Part shown: in pieces, positions 21,796-23,954 of the stretch
Layout of the letters: each line of letters begins with the position of its first letter
Numbering within the stretch: the stretch's first letter is position 1
Assembly: GCF_900116145.1 (NCBI RefSeq)
Contig: NZ_FPAB01000009.1
Location: 1 to 64,000, forward strand
Origin: Streptomyces harbinensis
GTDB taxonomy: Bacteria > Actinomycetota > Actinomycetes > Streptomycetales > Streptomycetaceae
Reading direction: 5' to 3'
DNA: 64,000 bases
Notes under the pieces: generated by a model
The model's database searches: none
Told to the model about the DNA's origin: nothing
Seen by the model: only the letters and a program-made list of their open reading frames with translations
Program-made: the position numbers and the translations under genes

Positions 21796-22392
21796 TCAGA
21801 GGCCGAAGCCGACGGAGCTGACGTAGCTGTAGGAGTCGTAGTCGGAGCCGAGGTCGGTGATGATCTCGTCCCAGACGATGTCGAGCATCTCGTGGTCGCC
21901 GGCGATCCAGGCCGCGATGATGTCGTCCCAGATCCGGTGCCCCCGCACCGTCACCCGCCGTACCACCAGATCACGGTCGCGGCCGGTACGGACATCGGTC
22001 TGGTCGACGGGATGGATCTCGATCCGGGTCCCCCGCACGGCGAGGCGGCGGGCCCACTCCACGCCCAGATTCCGGCGGCGCAGATCCCAGTAGGCGGCGT
22101 CGATCCGCTCCAGGTTCGCCCGCCGCGGGCGCTGCGTTCCCGCCACCCAGGCGTCGATCGTGCGCTGCCGGACGGTGATCCCCGCGCGCCGCATCGCCTC
22201 CCGCCCGGCGGCCGAACGCGTCAGGTAGCGCAGCCGCGCGGCGAGGCCGCGCCGGGTGCCGACCGGGGATTTGATGCCGGTGACCTGACGGTCCATCTCC
22301 CGGCCCAGCGCCCGCCAGCCCTCGACACCGCGCGCGCCGAAGACGCCGAAACCGCTGTCCGGGGTGGCCCCGGTGCCCCACCGGCCCGCCAT
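21796..22392 (-). CDS. Tpg-like (telomere terminal protein-like) helix-turn-helix protein
   Basis: The 198-residue product is close in size to Streptomyces telomere terminal proteins (about 185 residues). Residues about 40-100 (SPVGTRRGLAARLRYLTR, then GITVRQRTIDAWVAGTQRPR and ANLERIDAAYWDLRRRNLG) follow the same order as Tpg: an RLRFLT-like helix, a QRTV.RW-type helix-turn-helix and an N/R-x-L-E-R-x-E/D helix. The C-terminal part is unlike any domain I can name and ends SDYDSYSYVSSVGFGL with three tyrosines. Its ATG overlaps the stop of the Tap-like gene by one base. Tpg proteins are covalently attached to the 5' ends of linear replicons and prime end-patching. An alternative is a plain DNA-binding regulator encoded with a Tap-like gene. 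Confidence 0.5.
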   Translation of the reverse strand: MAGRWGTGATPDSGFGVFGARGVEGWRALGREMDRQVTGIKSPVGTRRGLAARLRYLTRSAAGREAMRRAGITVRQRTIDAWVAGTQRPRRANLERIDAAYWDLRRRNLGVEWARRLAVRGTRIEIHPVDQTDVRTGRDRDLVVRRVTVRGHRIWDDIIAAWIAGDHEMLDIVWDEIITDLGSDYDSYSYVSSVGFGL

Positions 22393-23954
22393 CAGCGGCC
22401 CCCGATGCGGTATTCGTCCTTCAGCTTCATGTCGGTGAGTCTGCGGCCCTCGGTGAACACGCCGCGCCAGTCACCGATGAGGTGCAGTTCGTCGGTGCCC
22501 GTCACCCGCACGACGGTGAGACCGGCCCCGTACGCCTTCCACGCCTTCAGCCACAGATTCGCGAACGCCTGGGAGCGGATGATGTGCATCCAGTCGGGGC
22601 GGCGCATCTCCCGGTTGGCGGAGGATTCGCCGATGGTGGAGACGAACTTGGCGTACATGGCCTTCACGTATTCGAGGGTGACGGTGTCGCCGGCCTCGAT
22701 CGCGGCGTCCCGGGCCGTGGCCATCTCCCGCCGGAACCGCTCCAGCAGCCCCTCGGAGCTGCCGGAGGTCCACGACTCGTGGATCACCGGCGGGTCGCAC
22801 AGCCCGTACCGGGGCCCGGACAGACGGATCAGCAGCCGCAGCGTCGGGTCGGTCACCCACAGCGGGCCGGGCTCCTCCCGGTTCCCCAGCGGGCTGGGCA
22901 GGTCGTCGTGCTCCCAGGCGGGCGGGGTGATCAGATACAGGCCGGAGCGCTTGCGGTCGTACTCCCCCGTCGCCGCGTGCCGCAGTGTTCCGATCGGCAG
23001 ATGCGTCTTGAGCGCCGACAGATACGCGCCGTTGGCGTCCAGCGCGGTGACGGTGCGGGCCGGGCCCCGCTCCGCCCCGGTGTTGCGCCACTTGGGACGG
23101 CCTTCCCAGATCAGGTCCGGGTCGTTGCGGCCCGGCTTCTTCAGGATGGGGACGTCGTCGGTGGAGAGGTAGTTGGTGAAGTCGTATGTGCTGCCCACCC
23201 GGGTGGAGTTGAGCAGCGCCATGGCGTCGGGGATGGCGCGTTTCACCAGGGCGGTGAGGGCCGCGTCGACGTCCCCGCCGTTGTCCTCCAGCGCCGCCGC
23301 GACGTTCCGGGCGATGGCGCCCGCGGTCTCCTCCCGCGCCGCCGCGGGACGGGCGGGCCGCGCGTCCGAGGGCGACGGTGCCGGGGACCGGGGCGCGGCC
23401 GGTGCGGGGTGGAGGGGGAGGCCGGGAGCGCAGGTGGCGTTGCAGTGCTGAGGACGTCCGGCGGCGCGGTGGCCGGCCGGCTGCCCGCACAGGACGCACG
23501 GCTCGGGCGGGCCGGTGACCAGGCGCCCGGACCGGTCCCGGTCGGGTTCGTAGGCCATGGTCCGGGCGGGGTCGCGCCGGTCGTCCGGGGCCGGTCCGGC
23601 CGGTGAGTGCTGCTGCTGCTCGGGGACGCCCGCGGTGGGGGCGGCGGGGGTGGCGGGGGTGTGCTCGGGGTCCGGTGCCGGAGTGGAGGACGGGGGCGGG
23701 GGCGGGGGGTAACGCTCCGCCAGGCCGGCCAGCAGCCGGGCGTAGCCGGCGCGGCGTTCGCCCTGCGGGTCGCGGGCGCCCGACTCCCACGCGGCCACCG
23801 TCTGCGCGGAGACGCCCAGTGCGGCGGCCACCGCCGTACGGGCCAGACCGCCCGCCTCCCGCAGCCGCAGCCGCTCCTCGGGGGCCGGCAGCGGATCGGC
23901 CTGCCGCAGCAGCGCGTCCACCGACGAGAACAGGGCGTCCTGGTCCTCCGTCAC
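22392..23954 (-). CDS. Tap-like (telomere-associated) protein with possible family B polymerase palm motifs
   Basis: The GTG at 23954 follows GGGAGGAGAAGG. The 520-residue protein begins VTEDQDALFSSVDALL and has an XRE helix-turn-helix at about 30-62 (ERLRLREAGGLARTAVAAAL and GVSAQTVAAWESG), as in Streptomyces telomere-binding protein Tap. A Pro-rich linker (83-200) contains C153xxC156 and H170-C171xxxC175, a possible zinc site. The C-terminal half has LDANGAYLSA (D306), KAMYAKFVSTIG (K431) and VTGTDEL (D488), which match in order and spacing the palm motifs A (DxxxxYxS), B (KxxxxxxYG-like) and C (xTD) of family B DNA polymerases. It is shorter than classical Tap (about 740). It is coupled to the Tpg-like gene. 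Confidence 0.6.
   Translation of the reverse strand: MTEDQDALFSSVDALLRQADPLPAPEERLRLREAGGLARTAVAAALGVSAQTVAAWESGARDPQGERRAGYARLLAGLAERYPPPPPPSSTPAPDPEHTPATPAAPTAGVPEQQQHSPAGPAPDDRRDPARTMAYEPDRDRSGRLVTGPPEPCVLCGQPAGHRAAGRPQHCNATCAPGLPLHPAPAAPRSPAPSPSDARPARPAAAREETAGAIARNVAAALEDNGGDVDAALTALVKRAIPDAMALLNSTRVGSTYDFTNYLSTDDVPILKKPGRNDPDLIWEGRPKWRNTGAERGPARTVTALDANGAYLSALKTHLPIGTLRHAATGEYDRKRSGLYLITPPAWEHDDLPSPLGNREEPGPLWVTDPTLRLLIRLSGPRYGLCDPPVIHESWTSGSSEGLLERFRREMATARDAAIEAGDTVTLEYVKAMYAKFVSTIGESSANREMRRPDWMHIIRSQAFANLWLKAWKAYGAGLTVVRVTGTDELHLIGDWRGVFTEGRRLTDMKLKDEYRIGGR

Follow-up and report, generated by a model that had tools for sequence, protein, structure and literature searches.

A Tap-like protein of Streptomyces harbinensis likely carries a minimal family B polymerase core without an exonuclease domain

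Does the Tap-like protein encoded at this locus only bind its telomere and its terminal protein (TP), or could it also make DNA? It has been reported that canonical Tap and Tpg alone carry out TP deoxynucleotidylation and TP-primed DNA synthesis to 13 nt in vitro, strongly promoted by Mn (PMC4513846, Yang 2015). In the same study neither Tap nor Tac was found to have a polymerase motif, and Tap was called a new class of polymerase (PMC4513846). In the open-access literature that we searched, citing papers included, no later report identifies a palm in Tap or assigns it to family B; since most subscription papers and bioRxiv were not covered, this is not proof of absence. A first-pass annotation of the window (the whole 64,000-nucleotide stretch of S. 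harbinensis DNA analysed here) had proposed D306, K431 and D488 of the Tap-like protein as palm motifs A, B and C. These positions held, with the numbering counted from the GTG start, and the features concerned are as follows.

22392..23954, minus strand: Tap-like gene, GTG start (VTEDQ...), 520 aa
23757..23867, minus strand: HTH DNA-binding domain, residues 30-66 (Pfam HTH_3, E 5.7e-7)
23430..23498, minus strand: putative zinc-binding cluster CxxC...H...C, about residues 153-175, read from the translation
22395..23327, minus strand: likely polymerase core, about residues 210-520, from alignments, hhalign, and AF2 with Foldseek
23013..23042, minus strand: motif A, LDANGAYLSA, from residue 305, with the putative catalytic D306, which pairs with phi29 D249
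22629..22664, minus strand: motif B, KAMYAKFVSTIG, with K431, which pairs with phi29 K383
22485..22505, minus strand: motif C, VTGTDEL, from residue 484, with the putative catalytic D488, which pairs with phi29 D458
21796..22392, minus strand: terminal-protein-like gene (TP), 198 aa, whose start codon shares one base with the stop codon of the Tap-like gene

The phi29 residues D249, K383 and D458 are D246, K380 and D455 in the 572-aa record. The spacing of the motifs is 125 (A to B) and 57 (B to C) residues in the Tap-like protein, and 134 and 75 in phi29 polymerase. From the N terminus, the protein is made up of the HTH, a linker, the Cys/His cluster and the polymerase core, the last comprising palm and fingers with little thumb and no exonuclease domain. 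In all but one of the 77 loci with enough upstream sequence (76), a C..C.{8,20}C pattern precedes the core. When compared with the Tap equivalog of NCBIfam (NF047542, telomere_Tap), the protein scores 100.6 bits, its N-terminal stretch scoring best, and so fails the cut-off of 600; it is a non-canonical Tap. It does belong to the broad Tap superfamily, having both the homologous core and the downstream TP gene.

The conservation of the motif residues is directly shown. In the alignment of close relatives D306, K431 and D488 are each invariant (81/81), and in 43 diverse superfamily members both Asp residues are kept throughout (43/43 each) and the Lys in 40, being replaced by G, T and A in L093, L003 and L002, respectively. 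Only four of the 527 columns of this 43-member alignment are fully invariant, namely D306, G338, P353 and D488, and the 11 highly divergent members share seven invariant columns, D306 and D488 included. The 43 members are selected sequences, not full hit lists: they take in 14 of the 80 genome loci as representatives, plasmid loci L001-L010 and L091-L096, and L098 from the S. harbinensis genome itself, while one of 12 canonical sequences tried (L157) was dropped, the search pattern being missing from it. Within the window, the motif triple is matched by one of the 168 open frames of at least 200 codons; this pattern was written post hoc from the Tap-like sequence and shows merely that the triple is uncommon. 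A further position, K510, is Lys in 41 of the 43 members; it was considered as the KxY lysine and dropped, as it is aligned with phi29 A484.

The relationship to family B polymerases is shown by profile comparison. When the 43-member Tap profile was compared by hhalign with a profile of 40 protein-primed PolB sequences, a match was obtained with Prob 91.3, E 9.5e-7 and a score of 59.1 over 215 columns. None of 200 column-shuffled decoys reached the Tap score (maximum 20.5), and the reversed control gave 16.4. The alignment, which was made without being told of the motifs, sets D306, K431 and D488 on the motif A Asp, motif B Lys and motif C Asp of phi29; it is colinear with family B, and also covers the LPxG after motif A and segments before motif B. 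The E-value of 9.5e-7 is for a database of one, and over a library of about 20,000 families it would be about 0.02; all hhalign E-values given here refer to single comparisons, of which several were made. Besides phi29 and PRD1, the PolB profile included ten annotated phage polymerases and 28 IMG/VR representatives; the latter came from a set of 29 hand-picked from 80, and the one left out lay below the length limit. The comparisons were confined to family B, and specificity rests on the decoys and on Foldseek.

Two further comparisons define how close this relationship is. With a narrower profile of 33 mostly phi29-like polymerases the match was marginal (Prob 1.3, E 0.041, score 24.3, 230 columns), the highest of its 200 decoys (22.5) being hardly below the Tap score; rotating this profile left the score almost unchanged, so rotation was discarded as a control. 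For a positive control, PRD1 together with four further remote polymerases was compared with the remaining PolB sequences, giving Prob 100 and a score of 352.5. This is far above the score of Tap, which is therefore a much more distant relative.

The match was also checked for each Tap type separately. The window-type sub-profile (23 sequences) alone matched the PolB profile with E 4.3e-4 and a score of 37.6 (maximum of 60 decoys, 24.2), and the other divergent sub-profile (8 sequences) with E 6.4e-6 and a score of 52.6 (decoy maximum, 21.4). The canonical Tap sub-profile (12 sequences) gave no match to the PolB profile when used alone (Prob 0.09, within the decoys). It is linked to the divergent sub-profile with Prob 100 and to the window type with Prob 93.1, and the window type is linked to the divergent one with Prob 99.8. 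Since canonical Tap fails to match by itself, its published activity reaches the palm through intermediates only.

Several standard features of such polymerases are missing or altered. No polymerase domain was recognised in the window protein by Pfam, PHROGs or NCBIfam, and none by Pfam in the 11 divergent members; a PDB sequence search over the core region gave no match. Motif C reads GTDE rather than DTDS, with the second Asp kept and the first Asp and the Ser lost. The motif B pattern KxxxNSxYG is not met either, NSxYG being absent from the motifs listed and the Lys itself not universal (40/43). No N-terminal 3'-5' exonuclease domain was found, HTH_3 being the only Pfam family above its curated cut-off, and the conserved part before motif A, about 90 residues, is too short for one; the hhalign query had left out the exonuclease region. 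Because the exonuclease, NSxYG and Pfam recognition all fail, we have not filed the protein as a standard protein-primed family B member. We consider it likely that its C-terminal 310 or so residues form a minimal, exonuclease-less family B core homologous to the phi29 and PRD1 polymerases, and that it works by the mechanism proposed below.

In addition to the profile comparisons, we have checked the predicted fold. The AlphaFold model, built on an alignment of 81 fairly similar sequences, is of low confidence (pLDDT 57.3, pTM 0.42). Its elements run from a strand leading to D306, through helices over motif B and a further helix, to a hairpin at D488 and a last strand, and this element order is that of the family B palm and fingers. 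When the model was searched with Foldseek against 350,542 chains, ranks 1 and 2 were phi29 polymerase (E 4e-3 and 8e-3, prob 0.87), ranks 3-17 were family B polymerases throughout, and rank 18 was telomerase. No Foldseek match passed E 0.001, and the phi29 matches had TM values of 0.22-0.28 and an rmsd of 14-16 Å. With VIA-align the Z value reached at most 6.1, the tool's typical best for models without a clear match being 7-8, and the best family B rows had an rmsd of mostly 3.4-4.6 Å over about 70-97 residues; such matches may reflect a mere common arrangement, and unrelated proteins were also in the list. The TP model, put through the same pipeline, gave no polymerase-like ranking. The structural evidence, resting on a predicted model, is supporting and not decisive. 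A predicted fold without a palm would have refuted the first-pass reading; in this low-confidence model a palm-like order is seen, with D306 ending a strand and D488 in the turn of a beta-hairpin, although no D306-D488 distance is available.

Taken together, the profile homology on all three residues, phi29 polymerase as the top two Foldseek matches and the published activity of canonical Tap support the proposal that this is no mere binding protein but a reduced protein-primed polymerase; for the window protein the activity is inferred. That the S. harbinensis genome has no PF00136 family B polymerase also speaks for this reading. The alternative offered in the same annotation, that the polymerase is degenerate, is not supported, as both catalytic Asp residues are invariant. 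On this inference, the Tap-like protein would act like a protein-primed family B polymerase, of which it is apparently a reduced descendant.

The pairing with a terminal protein is shown by the genome scan, in which the best 80 of 282 relatives were kept: in 60 of these 80 loci the Tap-like gene is followed by a TP homologue. The profile of the window TP matches those of other TPs (Prob 93.7). Its AF2 model is confident (pLDDT 87.6), and no convincing match to it was found among PDB structures (best E 1.4). In canonical Tpg the priming residue is T114 (PMC3572947). In the window TP, T122 is invariant (54/54), and 49 of the 54 aligned sequences have S or T at position 132; either may be the priming residue, and sequence alone does not resolve which.

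We have also examined where the two Tap types occur. Among 150 Streptomyces genomes, 53 have the window-type core (E at most 1e-100) and 98 have a canonical Tap scoring above the cut-off, with 19 genomes carrying both, 34 the window type only, 79 the canonical type only and 18 neither. The window type is thus largely complementary to canonical Tap (Fisher OR 0.127, p 3.4e-8), with the relatedness of the genomes uncorrected. The 18 genomes that lack both a full window-type core and a canonical Tap above the cut-off suggest that further end systems may exist. In several single-contig genomes (G358, G343, G360 and G417) the window-type core lies close to both ends; in G358, for example, which is about 8.5 Mb long, it is found 1.2 kb from the start and a second time at 8.518 Mb. 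Such locations would fit a telomere role inside terminal repeats, and some of these genomes, such as G417, carry canonical Tap too.

Outside chromosomes, tblastn found 149 plasmid records. Sixteen plasmid loci were examined; the record is called linear for fifteen of them and circular for one (Microbacterium). When the core from a relative in Brachybacterium served as query, 577 plasmid records were matched, among them HTH-type proteins of Streptomyces, 'telomere-binding proteins' of Rhodococcus and proteins of several other actinobacterial genera. The same core had no Tap-core homologue among 50,697 phage records, and none was found in IMG/VR. The core is modular: it follows an HTH in some proteins and a DnaB-like helicase in others, and it also forms the end of a 1733-aa protein whose N terminus is primase-like.

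Some individual loci deserve separate mention. Helicase- or primase-fused cores lie on plasmids at L002 (3198-5969), L003 (3177-5693), L009 (1263-4427), L004 (609-5810) and L092, and, leaving L009 aside, each is followed by a small TP-like ORF; these could conceivably be modules in which one protein serves both replication and end patching. The record called circular is L092 (Microbacterium sp. No. 7 plasmid A); its Tap/TP pair lies about 2-7.7 kb from the start, and the plasmid may be linear. The L008 and L010 plasmids, which carry window-type pairs, have GCGTCGTGTCTCCG in common in their last 90 or so bases, and this sequence might mark a telomere class served by window-type Tap. The S. harbinensis genome itself has a second, different Tap/TP pair (L098, 1141-3384 and 3384-3944), which scores 278 bits to telomere_Tap and lies on a 14-kb contig, C27, that is possibly a linear plasmid.

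The mechanism we propose is inferred by analogy with canonical Tap and phi29, including catalysis by the window protein itself. The HTH and the Cys/His cluster would bring the protein to the folded 3' telomere overhang, where it would bind the TP encoded immediately downstream. D306 and D488 would bind two metals and K431 the incoming dNTP, and the first dNTP would be joined to a TP hydroxyl. A short stretch would then be copied before another polymerase takes over.

An earlier view of Tap (PMC4513846) would make the protein a telomere-binding scaffold that only tethers TP, with host DinB1/2 or Pol I making the DNA. The HTH domain is consistent with this view, as is the need of linear replicons for one of DinB1 and DinB2 (PMC4513846). 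However, Tap and Tpg suffice in vitro without DinB1 (PMC4513846), and a scaffold does not account for the invariant Asp pair or the polymerase homology, so we regard it as very unlikely. We give as little credit to the view that the core is another palm or an RRM-like nucleotidyltransferase (primase, Y-family or RT) resembling family B by convergence. The weak fold model, telomerase at Foldseek rank 18 and the unrelated proteins among the VIA matches can be cited in its favour, but hhalign runs colinear with family B over 215 columns, and only family B polymerases occupy Foldseek ranks 1-17.

It is less easy to set aside, though still unlikely, that the window gene has decayed into an inactive paralogue and that the other Tap of the genome does the work, since a second Tap/TP pair is indeed present on the 14-kb contig. 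Against decay, the frame is intact, the TP partner is present and every motif residue is kept; relatives of about 80-85% identity occur in other Streptomyces, and 34 of the 150 Streptomyces genomes have the full window type with no canonical Tap above the cut-off.

Our preferred reading, a reduced family B polymerase, allows a bolder one. In it, a superfamily of minimal family B polymerases that have lost exonuclease and thumb would maintain the linear chromosomes and plasmids of actinobacteria. These enzymes would derive from protein-primed replicases, either viral or of linear plasmids, and would be to DNA polymerases what telomerase is to reverse transcriptases; the window type would be the end polymerase in Streptomyces without canonical Tap, and the helicase- and primase-fused forms would serve linear plasmids. 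As a whole, we lean towards this picture by only a small margin. A polymerase core in Tap would explain how DNA synthesis starts on a protein primer at chromosome ends. What is new here is that a fold, an ancestry and residues to mutate can be named for Tap, which previously had no recognised polymerase motif, and the question thus becomes testable in one assay. For several telomere classes, a survey of 2021 describes the telomere proteins as unknown (PMC8743542); window-type proteins are candidate end polymerases for Streptomyces without canonical Tap, and no assignment to the classes named in that survey is implied.

Among known systems, the closest is canonical Tap/Tpg (NF047542/NF047541), with which the window pair shares the N-terminal HTH, the operon with a downstream TP, the homologous C-terminal core and both Asp residues. 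The window protein differs in its length of 520 aa, its shorter core and its shorter C terminus, which has 32 residues after the motif C Asp compared with about 75, and its occurrence in genomes is anticorrelated with that of the canonical type. Tac/Tpc of SCP1 likewise supports TP-primed synthesis without an added polymerase, although Tac is reported to be unrelated in sequence to Tap (PMC4513846). A pair named GtpA/GtpB has reportedly been described in S. griseus, and we imply no link between it and the window pair. With phi29 DNA polymerase, Tap is colinear over a stretch that starts at motif A and ends shortly after motif C, and polymerase and TP genes are adjacent in both systems. Unlike phi29, Tap has no exonuclease, little thumb, a GTDE motif C, no NSxYG and an added HTH, and its known product is short. 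The same differences apply to the polymerases of PRD1 and other tectiviruses; a profile built from five remote phage polymerases, PRD1 among them, fits Tap better than the phi29-like profile does (E 4.1e-6 versus 0.049).
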